NCBI RefSeq assembly: GCF_900880625.1
Contig: NZ_CAAHFB010000004.1
Coordinates: 124,001-188,000, forward strand
Direction of reading: 5' to 3'
DNA from: Halorhabdus rudnickae
Lineage (GTDB): Archaea > Halobacteriota > Halobacteria > Halobacteriales > Haloarculaceae
Length of the DNA stretch: 64,000 bases
In this document: positions 32,143 through 41,701 of the stretch, in pieces
Layout of the letters: each line of letters opens with the position of its first letter
Numbering within the stretch: position 1 is the stretch's first letter
Position numbers and translations under genes: made by a program
The notes under the pieces: model-generated
Database searches by the model: none
What the model was told of the DNA's origin: nothing
What the model saw: only the letters and a program-made list of their open reading frames with translations

Positions 32143-33291
32143 TCACCCCATCATGATCTCGACGGGGACAGGCATGAAGCACAGCGCCCCCAACGCGAAC
32201 GTGATTGCGGCGACGCCCCACCGCCACGGCCCGATTGCCCCTTCCCGCAGGGGCGTCGCCGAGCCGGCCCGGACCATGACGAGGGCGATCACGCCCCAGA
32301 TTGCCCACAGGATGACCGACTGGGTGTAGTCCGTCAGGAAGTACAGCCCGGCTGACAGCGAGAACAGCACGCCGGGGACCGCTGCAGCGACCGTCTCCTG
32401 GCGCCGCCCCAGGGCTGCCCGCAGGATGTGCCCCCCGTCGAGTTGCCCGACGGGGATCAGGTTCAGAAAGGTCACGAACATCCCGACCCAGCCGCCAAAG
32501 ACAACCGGATTGACGGCCAGTCCCTCGCCATAGCCGGCCGGCTGCCCCGAGAGGTCGGCGAGCAAGGTGAGCAACAGCGGATCGTTGAACCGGATGTATC
32601 CGCTTCCTTCGGATGCCGCCTCGGCGGCCCCCTGAGGAACGGCGATGGGATCCAGATGGAGGCCGATCACCGTGACTACGATCGTCGCCGCGAGACCTGC
32701 AAGCGGGCCGGCGACGCCGATGTCGAACAGTGCCTTTCGGCTGGGGATCCGCCCGCGCATGCGGATGATGGCTCCCATCGTCCCGATCGGCGGCGGGACC
32801 GGGATGAAGTACGGCAGGCTCGCATCGACGTCGTAGTAGCGACTGGCGACGTAGTGACCCAGTTCGTGGGTCGCGAGGACGCCCAAAACAGCGGCCGTAA
32901 AGGGCCACGCCCGGAGTAGGTTCAGCGGGTCATCCGCGAGGTCGATGTAATACCACCACGTCCCCGCGTAGAGGGTCGTCGCGACGGTGAGAACGAACAT
33001 GGCGATGTTTCCCCACGGGATCCCGTCGATACCGGCCGATTGAGGTTCGGCGACGACTGCGTACGGGCCCGGGGCGCCGCGTTGATCGCGATCGTGGCGT
33101 TTCGTCAGTGAAACGTCGTAGCCGCGTTCGGCAAACGCTGGGGCGATCTCGTCGGCGACGTTTCCGGGGGCGATCAACGGTTCTCCGATGTACCGGATCG
33201 CCTCGCCGTCGCGTTCGACGCGGTAGACGTGAAACACCGACGACAACGCCGCGGGTCCTGGGGGCTGACTCGACGGCTCGTCTCCGGCCAT
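32143..33291 (-). CDS. Site-2-type membrane metalloprotease (M50)
   Basis: A 382-residue protein with an N-terminal soluble domain (~residues 1-95) and six or so membrane segments. The zinc motif HELGH (in 'ATHELGHYVASR') and the distal 'LNLIPVGQLDGGHI' carry the His/Glu/Asp ligands. It is expected to cut membrane-bound regulators or signal-peptide remnants. ATG 33291 was chosen over the upstream ATG at 33354. Confidence 0.88.
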   Translation of the reverse strand: MAGDEPSSQPPGPAALSSVFHVYRVERDGEAIRYIGEPLIAPGNVADEIAPAFAERGYDVSLTKRHDRDQRGAPGPYAVVAEPQSAGIDGIPWGNIAMFVLTVATTLYAGTWWYYIDLADDPLNLLRAWPFTAAVLGVLATHELGHYVASRYYDVDASLPYFIPVPPPIGTMGAIIRMRGRIPSRKALFDIGVAGPLAGLAATIVVTVIGLHLDPIAVPQGAAEAASEGSGYIRFNDPLLLTLLADLSGQPAGYGEGLAVNPVVFGGWVGMFVTFLNLIPVGQLDGGHILRAALGRRQETVAAAVPGVLFSLSAGLYFLTDYTQSVILWAIWGVIALVMVRAGSATPLREGAIGPWRWGVAAITFALGALCFMPVPVEIMMG

Positions 33292-33417
33292 TCGTGATGG
33301 GACCCAGGGGATTGGGACGTAAAATACCGACGCCCTGGTGATCCAGGGCGACACGGGTGCGGTCCCGGCGGGAGGACCAACCGGGCGACGCGGATACTGG
33401 GAATTAGTGGAGGGCTC

Positions 33418-34693: not shown

Positions 34694-34776
34694 CGATCGG
34701 GGAAACCGTTCTGTGTTTACTATGTATCACAACGAAGACGCACGCTTTCGGACGTATCGACCTCGGGTGTTTGACT

Positions 34777-36417
34777 ATGAGTGACGACGATCCCTACGCG
34801 ACGATCGACGATAGCGATCGCGCGTTCTGGGGAGAGGCCGTTGCTGATGCCATCGAAGCAGGCGATCCCGACGAACCGATCGTGATCAAGGGTGGGGTCT
34901 CGCCTTCGGGCGTGCCACACATCGGCCACCTCAACGAGATTGTCCGCGGGTACGTCGTCGCCGAAGTGTTGCGCGACCGTGGTCACGAGGTCCGGCAGAT
35001 ATTCACGGCAGACGACAAGGACCGTCTCCGGAAGGTCCCCCGACAACTTGCCGATCTGGAGTGGAACGTCGTCGGTCTCGGCGAAGTCGACGCGGGCGCA
35101 CTCGGCCGGAACCTCGGCAAGCCATACACATCGATCCCCGATCCCTTCGGCTGCTGTGACTCCTACGGTGCGCACTTTACGACGCTTCTGGCGGAGAGTG
35201 CCGAAATGCTTGGTATCCCGATCGAGGTCGTCTCGAACACGAAACTGTACGCCGAGGGCGACTTCGAAGACGTCACACAACACGTCCTGACGAACCGCGA
35301 TCAAGCACGTGCAGTCCTGGCCGACTATCAGGACAGCGTCGACGACGAGTACGTTCCCTTTCAGGCTGAGTGTCAATCCTGCGGGATCTTGACCGACGGG
35401 ATCGTCGACGTGGATCCCGAGGCCGGCACCGTCGCCTACGAGTGCCGGGACGTGACCGTCGGTGATGAGACCATCGAGGGCTGTGGTCACGAGGGCGAAG
35501 TGACCTTCCGAGAGGGCAAACTCCCATGGCGCTTCGAGTGGCCAGCCCAGTGGAACACGTTGGATGTAGATTTCGAGCCGTTCGGGAAGGACCACGCCGA
35601 GGGATCCTGGCCGTCGGGCGTCGCCATCGCCAAAGAGGTATTCGACGTTGAGCCGCCGGTTCCGATGGTCTACGAGTGGTTCACGCTCAACGGCGAGGCT
35701 CTCTCCTCGTCGTCGGGTAACGTCATCACGGCCGAGGAGGTGCTTTCGATGCTCGAACCGGCCGTCCTCCGGTACTTCTTCCTGAAGGATCCGCGCAAGC
35801 AGCGGGACTTCGATGTGGCCCACCTCGATCAGCTTGTCGACGAGTTCGACCGCTTCGAACGGGTCTACTTCGAGGAGGCCGACGCGAGCGACGACGATCG
35901 ACAGCGTGCCGACGCAGCTTATCCGATCGTCGTCGAGGAGTCTCGTGAGGAACGCGTCCGAATTCCCTACACCTTCGGGGCCGTACTCGGCATGACCGAC
36001 GACCCCGACCTCCGCGAGGAGATCGCCCGTCGCGAGGGCCACATTCCGGACGACGCCCCGGAGTGGGCTGTCGAAGAAGCGCTCGGTCGGGTCGAGGGTG
36101 CTCGCGCGTGGGCGCGGCGCACAGACAACGAGTTCAACTACGATCTCAAGCGGGCGGAACTTCCGGATGTGGCCTTCGGCGACGACACCGCGGCCGCTCT
36201 GGACGAACTCGCGGACTTCGTCGCCGAGGGCGCCGATGGCGAGGCGATCCAGGGGCGGATCTACGAACTGGCCGAGGCCTACGACCTGGATGTCGGCGAC
36301 TTCTTCGCCGCCGGGTATCGACTCCTGTTCGACTTAGAGGAGGGGCCGAAGCTCGGGCCGTTTCTCGCGAAACTCGATCGGGAGTTCGTGGTCGACCGGT
36401 TGCGTCGCGAGCGGTAA
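34777..36417 (+). CDS. lysS: Lysine-tRNA ligase, class I
   Basis: A 546-residue class I (archaeal) LysRS. 'SGVPHIGHLNE' is the HIGH motif and 'GEALSSSSGNVIT' stands for KMSKS. A zinc-binding segment with 'CQSCGI' near residue 196 and a later 'CGHEG' is present. ATG 34777 is used; TTG 34771 is possible. It follows pyrH co-directionally. Confidence 0.93.
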   Translation: MSDDDPYATIDDSDRAFWGEAVADAIEAGDPDEPIVIKGGVSPSGVPHIGHLNEIVRGYVVAEVLRDRGHEVRQIFTADDKDRLRKVPRQLADLEWNVVGLGEVDAGALGRNLGKPYTSIPDPFGCCDSYGAHFTTLLAESAEMLGIPIEVVSNTKLYAEGDFEDVTQHVLTNRDQARAVLADYQDSVDDEYVPFQAECQSCGILTDGIVDVDPEAGTVAYECRDVTVGDETIEGCGHEGEVTFREGKLPWRFEWPAQWNTLDVDFEPFGKDHAEGSWPSGVAIAKEVFDVEPPVPMVYEWFTLNGEALSSSSGNVITAEEVLSMLEPAVLRYFFLKDPRKQRDFDVAHLDQLVDEFDRFERVYFEEADASDDDRQRADAAYPIVVEESREERVRIPYTFGAVLGMTDDPDLREEIARREGHIPDDAPEWAVEEALGRVEGARAWARRTDNEFNYDLKRAELPDVAFGDDTAAALDELADFVAEGADGEAIQGRIYELAEAYDLDVGDFFAAGYRLLFDLEEGPKLGPFLAKLDREFVVDRLRRER

Positions 36418-36494: not shown

Positions 36495-38201
36495 ATGGTC
36501 GACACGCTAACGCTCGTCCTGATCGGGGTCCTCGCCTATGCCGTCGCCGCGATGGCTGCCCAGCGGTGGGGGTATCTGCCGTCTTCGCTGCACGTCTCAG
36601 GTCCGATCACCACCGTCCACACTCAGCGCGGCAAGGCGCTGCTCAATCGGTTGGCCCGCCACCGTCGCTTCTGGCGCGCCTGGGCGAACGTGGGGTTGGG
36701 GTTCTCCCTGCTCGTGATGGTCGGGATGTTCCTGACAATCATCTTCTCCGGGATCTCGGGGTTCCGTCGTCCGGAGGCGAACCCGATCCGGACGCCGACG
36801 GATGCGCTGGTGTTACCGGGCGTCAACGAGTTTTTGCCTCTCTCTGCGGCCCCGGAAATCGTCTTCGGACTGGCGGTTGCGATGATAATTCACGAGGGGG
36901 GCCACGGGTTGCTCTGTCGGGTCGAAGACATCGAGATCGAGTCGATGGGGCTGGCGCTGTTCACTGTCCTGCCGATCGGTGCGTTCGTCGAACCGGACGA
37001 ACAGAGCCAGCGGGCGGCCGATCGCGGATCGAAGACTCGGATGTTCGTCGCTGGCGTGACCAACAACTTCGCGTTGACTGTGCTGGCGCTGTTACTTCTG
37101 TTTGGACCGGTAGCAGGCTCGATCACGGCGGCAAACGGCGTCGCCGTCGGCGGCGTGCTCGCGGGATCGCCGGCCGAGCGAGCCGGACTGGGACAGGGCG
37201 ACGTTATCACGTCGATCAACGAGTCGACAGTGACGCTGCAGGATGGTGAGATCGTCCCCATCGACCGGTCGGTGACGGTCACGGCGGCGGTGGTTGACGG
37301 GCCGTTCGATCTCGCCGCCAACGACACGATCACCGCGCTCGACGGGACAGCCGTCGAAACAGTAGAGGACTTCGAGCAAGCGCTCCGGAACCGCAGCGTT
37401 GTGACCTTGCGGACGGGAGACGGCACCGAAACGACGGCCCCGGTCGGCGCCTACGCGAGTAGCATCCTGGCGGACACCCCGCTGTCGAATGCGAGCGCAC
37501 CGGTCGGCGAGCCGGTGGTCGTCACCCGGATCGGCAACCGTCGGATCCTCGACAGCGACGCGCTCGTTGAGACGCTGGACGGGATGGCGCCGGGCGACCG
37601 GGTGACCGTCGAGGCGTCCGTCAATGGGACACGGGCGACCTACAACGTCACGCTCGGCCGACAGGGCCCGGACGACGCGTTCCTCGGGGTCAGTGGGGTG
37701 CAGCGTGGCTACTCGGGTGTTACCGTCGAGGACTTCGGGTTCGGCATCCGTGGCTATCCGGCCGAACGGATGCTCGCCGTTTTGGGCGGCGACGGGAGCA
37801 GTGACATCGACTTCGGGCTGGGCGAACAGCTCCTGTGGTTCCTGACGTTGCCGTTCCTGACGCTTTTGGATCCCAGCGCCTTCGGGTTCGCCGGATTCAC
37901 CGGCTACGTCACGGAGTTCTACACGATCGGTGGGCCGCTGGGCTTTCTCGGCGGCGGCGTGTTCGCGCTGGCGAACCTGCTGTTCTGGACCGCCTGGATC
38001 AACTTCAACGTCGGGCTGTTCAATCTCATTCCCCTCTTTCCCCTGGACGGGGGACACATTCTCCGGACGAGCGCGGAGGCCGTCGTCGCCCGGACGCCGC
38101 TGAACAGCCGCTGGGCGGTGAAGGTCGTGACTGTTTCGGTGGGACTGGTCATGTTCGCGAGCCTGCTGGTGATGATGTTCGGTCCGATGCTCCTCGCCTG
38201 A
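36495..38201 (+). CDS. Site-2 protease with PDZ-like insert, tandem copy 1
   Basis: A 568-residue membrane metalloprotease. HEGGH at residues 133-137 sits in a membrane segment, and 'FNLIPLFPLDGGHIL' near residue 510 gives the distal Asp. Between them lies a large extracytoplasmic part (~residues 210-450) with PDZ-like 'ERAGLGQGDVITSINE' and a second PDZ-like unit. Many N-x-T/S sites suggest surface exposure and N-glycosylation. It is a tandem paralogue of the next gene; part of the sequence is almost identical in DNA (see repeats). Confidence 0.85.
   Translation: MVDTLTLVLIGVLAYAVAAMAAQRWGYLPSSLHVSGPITTVHTQRGKALLNRLARHRRFWRAWANVGLGFSLLVMVGMFLTIIFSGISGFRRPEANPIRTPTDALVLPGVNEFLPLSAAPEIVFGLAVAMIIHEGGHGLLCRVEDIEIESMGLALFTVLPIGAFVEPDEQSQRAADRGSKTRMFVAGVTNNFALTVLALLLLFGPVAGSITAANGVAVGGVLAGSPAERAGLGQGDVITSINESTVTLQDGEIVPIDRSVTVTAAVVDGPFDLAANDTITALDGTAVETVEDFEQALRNRSVVTLRTGDGTETTAPVGAYASSILADTPLSNASAPVGEPVVVTRIGNRRILDSDALVETLDGMAPGDRVTVEASVNGTRATYNVTLGRQGPDDAFLGVSGVQRGYSGVTVEDFGFGIRGYPAERMLAVLGGDGSSDIDFGLGEQLLWFLTLPFLTLLDPSAFGFAGFTGYVTEFYTIGGPLGFLGGGVFALANLLFWTAWINFNVGLFNLIPLFPLDGGHILRTSAEAVVARTPLNSRWAVKVVTVSVGLVMFASLLVMMFGPMLLA
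36891..37150 (+). repeat. Gene-conversion tract shared with 38704-38963 (copy 1)
   Basis: These 260 bases match 38704-38963 with only three substitutions, although the two genes differ widely downstream of the tract. The tract covers HEGGH and the following membrane segment. Confidence 0.85.
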
Positions 38202-38307
38202 GAGGGATGTTGTCGGGCCGGAGCGCCGTTTCGAAGCGATCAGTCCCGCGACGGCCACGGACGAAGGACGCAATTCTCTTCCCGTACCGGACCGTCCGAT
38301 CAGATAG

Positions 38308-40077
38308 ATGGTCGACACGCTGACGCTGGTCGCTGCCGGCGTTCTTGCCTACATGGTCGCGACGACGGTGCTCCGCCGCCGGGGGTATCTCCCGTCGTTC
38401 GTGCGCGTCTCGGGTCCGATTACGACGATCCGTACCGCTCGCGGGCGTGCCCTGCTGAACCGACTGGCCAGCCACCGTCGCTTCTGGCGCGCTTGGGCGA
38501 ACGTGGGCGTGGGATTTGCCCTGCTCGTGATGGTTGGGATGTTCCTGACAATCATCTTCTCGGGGATCGCGAGCCTCCAGCAGCCGGGGGCGAACCCGAT
38601 ACAGGAACCCAAAAACGCCCTGGTGATCCCGGGACTCAACGACTTTCTCCCGCTCGCCGCAGCCCCGGAGATCATCTTCGGGCTGGCGGTTGCGATGATC
38701 GTCCACGAAGGGGGCCACGGGTTGCTCTGTCGGGTCGAGGACATCGAGATCGAGTCGATGGGGCTGGCGCTGTTCACTGTCCTGCCGATCGGTGCGTTCG
38801 TCGAACCGGACGAACAGAGCCAGCGGGCGGCTGATCGCGGATCGAAGACTCGGATGTTCGTCGCTGGCGTGACCAACAACTTCGCGTTGACTGTGCTGGC
38901 GCTGTTACTTCTGTTTGGACCGGTAGCAGGCTCGATCACGGCGGCAAACGGCGTCGCCGTCGGTGGTTCGCTTCCGGGGTCACCCGCCGACGAGGTGGGG
39001 ATCGAACAGGGTGAGGTCATCACCGGGGTGAACGGTACCGCCGTCACGAACCAGTCGACGCTCACCGACGCGCTGGAGGGGGCAACGGGCCGGACTGTCG
39101 ACGTATCCTTGCGCGAGGGTGAGACCAGGCGGATCGAGCGCTCGGTGTTCGTCACGACGGCAATCGAGAACGGGCCACTCGGCGTGACCAGCGGCGACAC
39201 GATTGCCCGCGTCAACGGGACTGCCGTCCACACGGCCGGAGCGTTCCACGCTGCACTCCATAATCGGACAGTCGCAACCCTCACGACGACCAACGGCACT
39301 GAGACGACTGGGCCGATCGGGGCCTACGTGAGTAGGGTCGCGGCGGACGGGCCGCTGGCCAACGCGCCCGGTGGGCCTCCCACAGACGCTTCGATCGTCG
39401 TCACTCGCGTCGACGGCGAACGCATCGTAACCGGCGGGGACCTCTCGGCCGCACTGGACCGGACAGTTCCCGGTCAAGAAGTGCAGGTCGAAGCGATCCT
39501 CGACGGCCGCAGACATACGTACGACGTCACGCTCGGTGAGCATCCGCGCACGGACGTCGGGTTTCTCGGCGTTTCGGGCGTCCAGCCTGGCGTTAGCGGC
39601 GTGGCGGTCAACGACTTCGGTATCCGTGCCTACCCCGCCGACGCCTATTTGAGCCTCTTGGGCGGGGGCGGACAGGACTTGGGGCTGTCGATGGCTGAAC
39701 GGCTGTTCTCGATCATCACGCTCCCGTTCGCCACGATCGCCAGCCCACTGGTCCCGTTCAACTTTGCGGGGTTCGTCGGCCCGATCACGTCGTTTTATGC
39801 GGTCGGCGGGTCGTTGGGCTTTCTCGGTGGCGGCGTATTCGTGCTGGCGAACCTGCTGTTTTGGACCGCCTGGATCAACCTCAATCTCGCCGTCTTCAAT
39901 CTGATCCCGTTGTTCCCCTTGGACGGTGGTCACATCCTCCGGACGAGCACGGAAGCGATCGTCGCAAGGACGCCGCTGAACAGCCGCTGGGCCGTGCGGG
40001 CGGTGACAGTCTCGGTGGGTCTGGTGATGTTCGCCAGCCTCATGCTCATGCTGTTCGGTCCGGCGCTGCTTGCCTGA
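38308..40077 (+). CDS. Site-2 protease with PDZ-like insert, tandem copy 2
   Basis: A 589-residue paralogue of the previous gene with the same layout: HEGGH at residues 133-137, PDZ-like 'ADEVGIEQGEVITGVNG' and 'FNLIPLFPLDGGHIL' near the end. Its surface-exposed insert is longer by about 20 residues and strongly diverged, with different N-glycosylation sites, so the pair may recognise different substrates. It starts 106 bases after copy 1 in the same direction, with a matching AGATAGATGGTCGACACGCT start context. Confidence 0.85.
   Translation: MVDTLTLVAAGVLAYMVATTVLRRRGYLPSFVRVSGPITTIRTARGRALLNRLASHRRFWRAWANVGVGFALLVMVGMFLTIIFSGIASLQQPGANPIQEPKNALVIPGLNDFLPLAAAPEIIFGLAVAMIVHEGGHGLLCRVEDIEIESMGLALFTVLPIGAFVEPDEQSQRAADRGSKTRMFVAGVTNNFALTVLALLLLFGPVAGSITAANGVAVGGSLPGSPADEVGIEQGEVITGVNGTAVTNQSTLTDALEGATGRTVDVSLREGETRRIERSVFVTTAIENGPLGVTSGDTIARVNGTAVHTAGAFHAALHNRTVATLTTTNGTETTGPIGAYVSRVAADGPLANAPGGPPTDASIVVTRVDGERIVTGGDLSAALDRTVPGQEVQVEAILDGRRHTYDVTLGEHPRTDVGFLGVSGVQPGVSGVAVNDFGIRAYPADAYLSLLGGGGQDLGLSMAERLFSIITLPFATIASPLVPFNFAGFVGPITSFYAVGGSLGFLGGGVFVLANLLFWTAWINLNLAVFNLIPLFPLDGGHILRTSTEAIVARTPLNSRWAVRAVTVSVGLVMFASLMLMLFGPALLA
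38704..38963 (+). repeat. Gene-conversion tract shared with 36891-37150 (copy 2)
   Basis: Same 260-base segment as in copy 1, three substitutions, offset 1813 bases. Silent sites are identical too, which shows recent homogenisation rather than protein-level constraint. Confidence 0.85.
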
Positions 40078-40522: not shown

Positions 40523-41701
40523 ATGCAGGTCCCCCAATCGTCGCGGCGGATACTGTTTGCCCTCTCGGTCGTTGGGTGCGTCGGAGCCCTCGCTGGCTGT
40601 GGGATGCTCGTGGGGGGAGCCAATTCGATCCCGGACGGCGAGACAGTCAGTAACCAACTGGACTCCTTGGAGACCATCGAAAGTACGGTCGTCACGGAGT
40701 TCGACAACGGGACGACCGTCGATCCATCGCGTACCCGGGCGATCCGGAACCTCCGGACGGGTGAGTCACGTGCGACGGTCGTCACTGGTCGACAGGAAGG
40801 CGTGACTATCGGATCGAACGGCACGGCGATATGGATGTACAACCGTTCGGCCGACCGGGTCGACGTCCTCCGGACGAATCTTTCGTTGTCGAATCGCAGT
40901 CGGTCCTTCGAGACTGTCGAAACGATTTTCGATCGACTTCAAAAGGCCGAGCGGGGAGAACCGACCGAAGCCTCGATCTCGCAACTTCCCGTCGTTCCGC
41001 GAGCCAGTGACCCGATAACAACTGATGCGAGTTCCGTTTCTATCTACGGGAACGTGAGGCTTACCTACGCCGGCACCGAATCGGTCGCCGGTCGGGAGTC
41101 CTACGTCGTACAGATTCGGCCGATCGACGACGAACAACTCGTCGGGAACACGACGATGTGGTTCGATACAGAGTGGTACTATCCAATCAAGACGACCACG
41201 ACGGTCTCGATCGGCGAGGAGTCGACGACCACGACGGTCACCTACCGGAACGTGACCTTCAACGCGAACGTTCCCGAGGGAACGTTCGCGTTCGATCCGC
41301 CCGAGAACGCCACGGTCGTTACGCGATCAGTACCTGAGACCGAGGCCTACGACTCGCGGGACGCACTCGCGGCTGCCGCCGAGACCTCGCTCCCGGACCC
41401 AGCGGTGCCAACTGGGTTCGAGTTTGCCGAGGGGCGTCGATCGGTCTTCGAGGGTAACACGACGGTCACCCTCGAGTACACCAACGGGACGGCGAACGTC
41501 TCGGTCCTGACGAGTCCAGGGACGGCGAGTACGTCCGGCACTGGTGAATCGGTTGATATCTCGGGACAGGAGGGTCGGCTCCTCGATATCGGAGAGAGAA
41601 GCTACGTGACGTGGGACTGCGACGGACGGCCCTACACCGTGAGCGGATCGGTCGGGGAGGAGACGTTGTTGTCGGTCGCCCGGTCAATCGAGTGCGGGTA
41701 A
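40523..41701 (+). CDS. LolA-like envelope lipoprotein
   Basis: A 392-residue exported protein. The N-terminal hydrophobic stretch ends in a lipobox 'ALAGC' (Cys at ~26), so the mature protein is lipid-anchored. Repeated beta-strand segments ('TTMWFDTEWYYPIKTTTTV', 'YRNVTFNANVPEGTFAFDPP') match haloarchaeal proteins of the LolA/LppX-like lipoprotein-sorting family. Several N-x-T/S sites are present. The role in haloarchaea is unknown; sensing or carrying lipids is inference. Confidence 0.75.
   Translation: MQVPQSSRRILFALSVVGCVGALAGCGMLVGGANSIPDGETVSNQLDSLETIESTVVTEFDNGTTVDPSRTRAIRNLRTGESRATVVTGRQEGVTIGSNGTAIWMYNRSADRVDVLRTNLSLSNRSRSFETVETIFDRLQKAERGEPTEASISQLPVVPRASDPITTDASSVSIYGNVRLTYAGTESVAGRESYVVQIRPIDDEQLVGNTTMWFDTEWYYPIKTTTTVSIGEESTTTTVTYRNVTFNANVPEGTFAFDPPENATVVTRSVPETEAYDSRDALAAAAETSLPDPAVPTGFEFAEGRRSVFEGNTTVTLEYTNGTANVSVLTSPGTASTSGTGESVDISGQEGRLLDIGERSYVTWDCDGRPYTVSGSVGEETLLSVARSIECG

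Follow-up and report, generated by a model that had tools for sequence, protein, structure and literature searches.

Relation to described systems

RseP and related PDZ site-2 proteases (PDB 7w6x, 7w6z, 9j82; PMC4597795, excerpted text) possess the motifs HExxH and LDG, which are also present in the two Halorhabdus proteins analyzed here, termed copies A and B. As in RseP, the PDZ domains of A and B lie amid the catalytic membrane segments. For A and B, a hairpin is predicted behind HExxH. The excerpted text of PMC4597795 ascribes a substrate-presenting function to the membrane-reentrant (MRE) beta-loop of RseP. A and B differ from RseP in that they are haloarchaeal, score below the cut-off of the NCBIfam RseP equivalog TIGR00054 and, according to the predicted models, carry approximately 115 residues with two long helices ahead of the part that aligns with RseP. 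For Haloferax volcanii, four site-2 proteases are recorded in the excerpt of PMC9263693, where their function is listed as unknown; HVO_1870 is, like A and B, a haloarchaeal PDZ-bearing M50 site-2 protease and has the same entry for function.

Regarding the evolution of the pair, the nearest case is the conversion between RF1 and RF2 in bacteria (PMC4530459). In the excerpted text, these are old, functionally diverged paralogues whose exchange is limited to the segment serving a common task (RF domain 3), as it is in A and B, and the conversion arose independently in two lineages. The Halorhabdus case is different in that A and B are tandem archaeal membrane proteases and that every one of the four two-copy species found in the genus shows an event. 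A large survey (PMC6053082) describes paralogues that are closer to each other within a species than orthologues are between species, silent sites included, which holds for A and B as well. It includes tandem archaeal genes (mtrA) and the membrane protease ftsH. However, as far as its excerpted text goes, the survey deals with full-length concerted evolution only, while the A/B conversion is partial; all seven archaeal genes in it belong to methanogens, and partial cases are named as future work. Recurrent conversion of parts of genes has thus been little surveyed in prokaryotes. A literature search for gene conversion and site-2 proteases together returned no report. The copying process is already known. 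The Halorhabdus pair provides a new and clean case, compact, natural and structurally easy to interpret: in four species, the two copies have the catalytic motif and the probable substrate-presenting hairpin in common while their PDZ parts stand apart.

The protease pair

The analyzed window is a stretch of 64,000 nucleotides of Halorhabdus rudnickae (contig NZ_CAAHFB010000004.1, positions 124,001 to 188,000). It contains A and B as adjacent genes on the same strand, sited downstream of lysS:

36495..38201, + strand: copy A, RseP-like PDZ site-2 protease (Peptidase_M50), 568 aa (ORF, Pfam, Foldseek)
38308..40077, + strand: copy B, RseP-like PDZ site-2 protease (Peptidase_M50), 589 aa (ORF, Pfam, VIA-align)
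36891..36905, + strand: HEGGH zinc motif of A (sequence; H133, E134 and H137 invariant in 24 sequences)
38704..38718, + strand: HEGGH zinc motif of B (sequence)
38043..38057, + strand: LDGGH of A, second catalytic motif (sequence and 24-sequence alignment)
39919..39933, + strand: LDGGH of B (sequence)
36936..36995, + strand: residues 148-167 of A, predicted beta hairpin that probably corresponds to the RseP MRE beta-loop (AlphaFold2 strands 148-156 and 159-167)
38749..38808, + strand: residues 148-167 of B, same predicted hairpin (AlphaFold2 strands 148-156 and 162-167)

The two proteins are 69% identical overall. Both passed the gathering cut-off of PF02163 (27.2 bits) with 89.3 bits (E 3e-25) for A and 82.8 bits (E 3e-23) for B, and matches to PDZ_2 and PDZ_6 were obtained between the catalytic membrane segments. 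In the second motif, L517, D518, G519 and G520 are invariant and H521 is present in at least 90% of the 24 aligned sequences. Judged by family match and motifs, A and B are PDZ-bearing M50 (site-2) proteases. Their scores against TIGR00054 (30.9 bits for A, 43 bits for B) remained under the cut-off of 147.55, and they are classed by sequence as RseP-like, not as RseP proper.

For the structure alignments, 15 of 35 loci were used; L056 and L060 were dropped due to a stop in the translation, others for brevity, and the A copy of G001 as well as G005 were left aside. The best Foldseek matches of A were RseP chains (E 1.9e-13), at TM-scores by query length of 0.22-0.24 and an rmsd above 20. With VIA-align, B was superimposed on the PDZ tandem of A. 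aeolicus RseP with Z 12.2 and an rmsd of 11.7 over 155 residues, while the rmsd to whole RseP chains was 18-20. The hairpin stretch of B aligned weakly in sequence with A. aeolicus RseP (9.8 bits, i-Evalue 2.5). From the predicted models, the hairpin behind HEGGH is probably the counterpart of the substrate-presenting MRE beta-loop.

A homogenised catalytic segment

In the window genome (G000), one segment of A and B is almost identical:

36891..37150, + strand: homogenised tract of A, 260 bases with three differences from B (sequence comparison, dS)
38704..38963, + strand: homogenised tract of B (sequence comparison, dS)

The first-pass annotation had described 260 bases around HEGGH differing at three positions. 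The length and the number of differences were confirmed (36896, 36926 and 37019 in A numbering, all third codon positions), but the tract does not surround the motif: HEGGH sits on its 5' edge and the tract runs downstream from there. Its limits are sharp, as mismatches return at 36890 and 37151. Between A and B, dS (NG86) was 0.71 for codons 1-133, 0.05 for codons 134-218, 0.97 for codons 219-455 and 0.79 for codons 456-568; the corresponding dN values were 0.18, 0, 0.46 and 0.17. Among the silent-variable codons, up to 26 in a row agreed (codons 176-218), a length that none of 10000 shuffles reached, so that the identity of the tract is not due to chance.

The A/B pair was found in four of seven Halorhabdus genomes (G000, G001, G002 and G003), and these four two-copy species are the whole sample found. 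A shorter stretch of the core is homogenised in each of them:

36900..36989, + strand: codons 136-165 of A, homogenised with B in all four two-copy species (synonymous counts, trees, AU tests)
38713..38802, + strand: codons 136-165 of B, counterpart stretch (synonymous counts, trees, AU tests)

Within species, the four pairs revealed only 1/29, 1/27, 2/29 and 2/29 synonymous differences in codons 136-165, a stretch chosen post hoc after the data had been seen. Since synonymous differences are also somewhat reduced there in deep comparisons (8/24), a slight constraint at the DNA level or on codon usage may add to this signal. Over the whole core the extents are unlike. In G001 the core dS between A and B was reduced only moderately (0.32), and in G002 (0.63) it was not reduced. 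The silent run of G003 was matched by seven of 10000 shuffles, that of G001 was not significant (4214/10000), and in G002 the longest silent run lay at the C-terminus and not in the core (363/10000).

The distribution of individual codons favours homogenisation of the core. Codons shared by the paralogues and differing between sister species fell into the core in 22 of 32 cases for G000/G001 and in 11 of 17 for G002/G003, compared to 0/91 and 6/105 of the codons shared by orthologues (p 5.6e-17 and 8e-8, Fisher test). For the catalytic parts at the N- and C-terminus, the same test gave no enrichment of paralogue-shared codons (G000/G001: p 0.23 and 1.0; G002/G003: p 0.23 and 0.71). Amino-acid changes common to both copies were likewise located mostly in the core (five of seven sites for G000/G001, three of four for G002/G003). 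A search of 146 genomes of the family (E <= 1e-30) detected no tandem site-2 protease pair outside Halorhabdus. A match was obtained in 145 of them and two or more matches in 16, four of which are the Halorhabdus pairs. In the 12 others, the copies were distant or on separate contigs, fragments at contig ends (G016) or a single split gene (G101).

Conflicting segment trees

Trees were calculated with 11 Halorhabdus and 13 outgroup sequences hand-picked from many matches, the sub-tract trees without five of the 13. In the PDZ tree, the four A copies form one clade (100/99) and the B copies join the single copies (98/97); in this part, A and B form separate lineages of long standing. By contrast, the core tree (codons 122-219) unites both copies of G000 with both copies of G001 (100/98), with the A and B copies of G000 next to each other (100/99.9). 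The separate phylogenies of core and PDZ parts are thus in conflict, as paralogues join in the former and orthologues in the latter. In the AU test of the core, a grouping of the G000 and G001 A copies was rejected (p 3.7e-8), while that of the G002 and G003 A copies was not (p 0.47). With codons 136-165, all four pairs clustered by species (bootstrap 83-93, SH-aLRT 66-97, none starred) and grouping by orthology was rejected in all four cases (AU p 2.4e-4, 9.2e-4, 8.6e-6 and 3.2e-4). The best tree of codons 166-219 contained the G000 pair only; the pairs of G001, G002 and G003 were absent yet not rejected (p 0.10-0.12), and the A copies of G002 and G003 grouped together (92/93). In the C-terminal catalytic part of G002/G003, conversion is suggested by the segment tree but unproven.

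The age of the duplication is less clear-cut. The PDZ tree places A outside B and the single copies (98/97 for DNA, 90/88 for protein), but a grouping of A with B was not rejected (AU p 0.14 for DNA, 0.09 for protein). The lysS tree, from which G003 was omitted because of a split frame, along with two rows carrying an incomplete lysS and six loci where no lysS was found, left the relations of G002, G000/G001 and G004-G006 unresolved. Either A may have been lost in G004-G006 or the duplication may have occurred later.

Divergence of the PDZ parts

The PDZ-like parts had been noted as strongly diverged, and this holds true: in the window genome their nucleotide identity is 60% and the longest exact match in any register measures 13 nt. 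Exact matches do not exceed 16 nt in any of the four A/B pairs. PDZ1 of A is shortened:

37226..37236, + strand: site in A without 20 PDZ1 codons, after codon 244 (24-row alignment) or 247 (smaller alignments), in all four A copies
39040..39108, + strand: the 20 PDZ1 codons of B missing from A, numbered 245-264 or 248-267 in B according to where the gap is set, with a predicted helix at 249-258

These 20 residues are absent from all four A copies and present in the 20 other sequences, and two conserved PDZ1 positions are spaced by 21 residues in the A copies versus 40-41 in the others. The AlphaFold2 model of B includes the PDZ1 helix (249-258), that of A has no helix there. A lost PDZ1 strand in A was also considered and dropped, since a short strand at 245-248 of A can match that of B; only the helix is clearly gone. 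The deletion in all A copies favours functional divergence of A and B, and we infer that the two enzymes have different substrates or are regulated differently.

A relative-rate comparison revealed no significant acceleration of the PDZ parts in A. The PDZ dN to 11 outgroups was 0.550 for A, 0.525 for B and 0.500 for the single copies, and all three bootstrap intervals of the differences include zero. Between orthologues, the PDZ dN/dS was approximately 0.16-0.18 in A as well as in B, and approximately 0.27 for the single copies G004 versus G006. The age of the duplication accounts for the divergence of the PDZ parts. The core was the sole segment with an interval excluding zero (0.007 to 0.080 for the excess of A relative to the single copies), and a rate excess there is at odds with an account driven by the PDZ domains.

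Probable conversion and rival explanations

The data are best explained by recurrent, partial, non-allelic gene conversion of the core segment between the old tandem paralogues A and B, to which we assign a probability of approximately 0.88. Gene conversion at the active site had been proposed from the window alone; it is now strongly supported by dS, silent runs, trees and AU tests, and recurs in the other two-copy species. A and B would be an old tandem pair of Halorhabdus whose catalytic segment has repeatedly been overwritten between the copies. The last event in G000 would have covered approximately 260 bp, from the HEGGH codons across the hairpin that probably presents substrates and the membrane helix behind it to the start of PDZ1; in G001, G002 and G003, separate events would each have affected some of these codons. 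Purifying selection may maintain sufficient similarity in the core for recombination, whereas the PDZ parts may have drifted under the homology it requires; conversion would thereby be confined mainly to the core. Because the exact matches in the PDZ parts are so short, lack of homology alone can bar conversion there. The outcome would be two proteases with one active-site region and unlike PDZ equipment, the PDZ1 helix being lost in A. For this pair, we infer both the recombination mechanism and the role of homology length.

A recent tandem duplication followed by fast PDZ divergence is suggested by the neighbouring position, common strand and 69% protein identity of the genes, but its probability is negligible: the A copies of four species form a single PDZ clade, and the dS of 0.71-0.97 outside the core excludes a recent duplication of the whole gene, which settles the check on synonymous divergence proposed in the first-pass annotation. 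Purifying selection or a constraint on DNA or RNA might hold the core identical without recombination. The core is indeed the most conserved part of the protein, its dN to 11 outgroups being below that of the three other segments, and codons 136-165 exhibit somewhat fewer synonymous changes in every comparison. However, orthologues of the two-copy species differ normally in codons 134-218 (dS 0.70 for the A and 0.62 for the B copies of G000/G001; 0.73 and 0.47, respectively, for G002/G003) and the paralogues have species-specific core codons in common (22 in G000/G001, 11 in G002/G003). Constraint at the DNA level is therefore not the main cause of the A-B identity, and on its own it is extremely improbable as an explanation. 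Only slightly more credible, and still very improbable, is an assembly artefact in which reads of one copy filled the other. A placeholder of 10 N inside this stretch of copy A in the H. amylolytica (G001) assembly suggests a disturbance of that assembly by the repeat; against this, A and B still differ at three tract positions in the window genome and the pattern in codons 136-165 is present in four assemblies with unlike extents, one of which (G003) is a one-contig genome.

It is conceivable that the conversion itself is selected, A and B needing an identical active site and hairpin, for example due to common substrates, mixed dimers or mutual interference, while their PDZ parts are selected to differ. 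The recurrence over the same codons in each two-copy species, the joint amino-acid changes mostly in the core (5/7 and 3/4) and the truncated PDZ1 of A in all four species would be in line with this, and a role of selection in prokaryotic full-length concerted evolution has been put forward (PMC6053082, excerpted text). On the other hand, homology limits alone (PDZ matches of at most 16 nt) predict the same map, PDZ change in A is without significant excess, orthologues have a PDZ dN/dS far below 1, and the RF1/RF2 case was deemed neutral by its authors in the excerpt of PMC4530459. This explanation is unlikely. Equally doubtful is the related notion that selection maintains the conversion, with core variants being tried in both enzymes and the crippled PDZ1 of A and the intact one of B acting as two gates. 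The earlier suggestion of selection for new substrate specificity is, as worded, unsupported, given the short PDZ matches and the lack of a significant PDZ rate difference.

Trees based on the core of this protease would mislead on orthology. The natural pair, with the same core and an unlike PDZ1, is a ready tool for the analysis of PDZ function. Assemblies may break at the A/B tract, as in H. amylolytica, where the A copy appears as two ORFs; this frameshift is due to the assembly placeholder and is no real lesion.

Tandem protease genes and homogenised tract

Copies A and B, tandem genes for RseP-like M50 (site-2) proteases, follow lysS in the window:

34771-36417, upstream of A and B: lysS (archaeal lysine-tRNA ligase model)
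36495-38201, + strand: copy A, ORF of 568 aa
38308-40077, + strand: copy B, ORF of 589 aa

Both match the Pfam Peptidase_M50 and PDZ models and contain HExxH (as HEGGH) and a second motif, LDGGH; the RseP equivalog cut-off is reached by neither. A third M50 gene (32143-33354, - strand, 403 aa; Peptidase_M50 E 1e-22), with no PDZ match among its listed models, is located upstream of lysS, and three site-2 protease genes lie inside 8 kb. The gene next after B (40523-41701, + strand) revealed a weak LolA match under the cut-off.

A stretch of 260 bases (A, 36891-37150; B, 38704-38963) differs at three positions, all third-codon positions. This near-identity, reported by the first-pass annotation, was confirmed, but it does not lie around HEGGH: the HEGGH codons open the tract and form its upstream edge, and the usual divergence returns immediately at either end. 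Synonymous divergence (dS) between A and B drops to 0.05 in codons 134-218 (catalytic core), compared with 0.71 in codons 1-133, 0.97 in codons 219-455 (PDZ part) and 0.79 in codons 456-568. The longest run of silent agreement covers 26 variable codons (176-218), a length reached by none of 10000 shuffles.

Probable recurrence of conversion in Halorhabdus

The tandem pair was detected in four of seven Halorhabdus genomes searched: the window's (G000), its sister H. amylolytica (G001) and the sister pair G002/G003. The other three (G004-G006) possess one B-like copy, adjoining lysS in G004 and G006 and on one stretch with lysS in G005. No other tandem pair was seen among 146 family genomes, in which 12 other genomes with at least two matches were inspected. 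An ORF resembling the 40523-41701 gene comes after B in G001; the single copies of G004 and G006 are followed by a different gene (426 aa). Copy A of G001 looks like two ORFs because of a 10-N placeholder within the homogenised stretch (locus L082, 3014-3023). In the one-contig genome G003, lysS (locus L084, 6006-7645) occupies two overlapping frames of 303 and 296 aa, due to a frameshift or sequence error, and in the family genome G101 the single homologue (C44:20829-22524) is divided between two neighbouring matches whose open frames differ (query 1-195 and 213-588), a broken gene or an assembly error.

Since core dS between A and B is 0.32 in G001, 0.63 in G002 and 0.25 in G003, the long recent tract is confined to the window's genome among the four two-copy genomes. 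A shorter segment, codons 136-165, chosen post hoc after data inspection, is homogenised in all four. Here A and B show 1/29, 1/27, 2/29 and 2/29 synonymous differences within species, orthologues 6/26, 6/28, 9/28 and 9/28. A tree built from these 90 bases clusters each of the four pairs by species (bootstrap 83-93, SH-aLRT 66-97, none starred), and orthologue grouping was rejected in four of four tests (AU p 0.00024, 0.00092, 0.0000086 and 0.00032). From this we infer at least one conversion event per two-copy species since the split from its sister. Codon counts point the same way. Of the codons that paralogues share within a species and that differ between sisters, 22/32 in G000/G001 and 11/17 in G002/G003 lie in codons 122-219, against 0/91 and 6/105 of the orthologue-shared ones (Fisher p 5.6e-17 and 8e-8). 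The PDZ part is reversed (paralogue-shared 0/32 and 1/17, orthologue-shared 52/91 and 56/105), and in the N- and C-terminal parts the two classes do not differ (p 0.23 to 1.0). As the two A and two B copies of G002 and G003 cluster together in the C-terminal tree (codons 456-568; bootstrap/SH-aLRT 99/97), an older conversion may have occurred at the LDGGH end.

Other results were weaker or unfavourable. The run test was significant in G003 (7/10000) and not in G001 (4214/10000); in G002 the longest run lies at codons 523-551 (363/10000). For codons 166-219 the best tree recovers only the G000 pair; the other three pairs are absent from it, yet not rejected (p 0.10-0.12), and G002A clusters with G003A (92/93). 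In this segment, grouping of G000A with G001A and of G000B with G001B was rejected (p 0.00025 and 0.0016).

Nucleotide constraint is excluded as the main cause, since the core dS of sister-species orthologues (codons 134-218; 0.70 and 0.62 in G000-G001, 0.73 and 0.47 in G002-G003) falls in the range seen in the rest of the gene (0.27-0.71 and 0.41-0.63), although deep comparisons, too, revealed a slight shortage of synonymous change in codons 136-165. A recent duplication of A and B is ruled out as well, because the pair is old outside the tract: the PDZ tree unites the four A copies in one clade (100/99) and places the B copies with the single copies of G004-G006 (98/97). Thus, gene conversion that recurs and affects part of the gene is well supported for this old tandem protease pair, a further example of a known process.

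Predicted structure of the homogenised and diverged parts

In the AlphaFold2 models (mean pLDDT 80.2 for A and 79.4 for B; pTM 0.65 and 0.69), the HEGGH helix spans residues 120-143 and is followed by a beta hairpin (148-167) and a long helix (177-208); PDZ1 begins at about 210. Codons 136-165 comprise the last HEGGH residues, the linker and most of the predicted hairpin. Its position, predicted shape and a common pattern of proline followed by small residues suggest that the hairpin is the positional counterpart of the RseP membrane-reentrant beta-loop, although B aligns only weakly with Aquifex RseP over this stretch (9.8 bits, i-Evalue 2.5). According to PMC4597795, this loop of E. coli RseP binds membrane segments of substrates, and beta-loop mutants alter substrate cleavage. 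RseP structures were the best Foldseek matches of the A model with low TM-scores (0.22-0.24), perhaps due to differing domain orientation. With VIA-align, the PDZ part of B matched the PDZ tandem of Aquifex RseP over 155 residues (Z 12.2, rmsd 11.7). The last PDZ-like part of B matched PDZ2 domains of MucP and RseP (Z 9.9-11.7, rmsd 2-3), and other PDZ domains, e.g. SdrC-like domains of Listeria (Z 11.7), tie with these.

In PDZ1, two conserved positions are separated by 21 residues in all four A copies and by 40-41 in all 20 non-A sequences (4 B, 3 single, 13 outgroup). This stretch forms a helix (249-258) and a strand (263-268) in the B model; in the A model it lacks the helix and retains a short strand (245-248). 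Since a PDZ helix of this kind lines the peptide groove, PDZ1 of A is probably unable to bind peptide in the usual manner. That A and B work differently is indicated concretely by this shortening rather than by overall PDZ divergence. Measured against 11 outgroup sequences, PDZ dN is 0.550 for A, 0.525 for B and 0.500 for single copies, and every bootstrap interval of the differences spans zero. Core dN of A slightly exceeds that of single copies (0.201 vs 0.161, interval 0.007 to 0.080).

Possible reason why conversion is seen mainly in the core

Homology-requiring recombination machinery would convert the core first. The longest exact matches between the PDZ parts of the four pairs, in any register, are 13, 16, 13 and 11 nt; in-register runs reach 54-131 nt in the core, up to 65 nt in the N-terminal and up to 32 nt in the C-terminal part. 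In haloarchaea, efficient conversion among genome copies is established (PMC11276520). The conversion map can be explained without selection, since homology-dependent recombination would favour the core anyway. Selection on conversion may still contribute, as amino-acid changes common to both copies of one species fall mostly in the core (5/7 sites in G000/G001, 3/4 in G002/G003). Selection for new specificity, as proposed by the first-pass annotation, is possible, but the data do not show it. A literature search yielded no paper combining 'gene conversion' with 'site-2 protease'. The closest precedent is the conversion between bacterial RF1 and RF2, which is limited to the domain with a task common to both and is considered neutral by its authors (PMC4530459).
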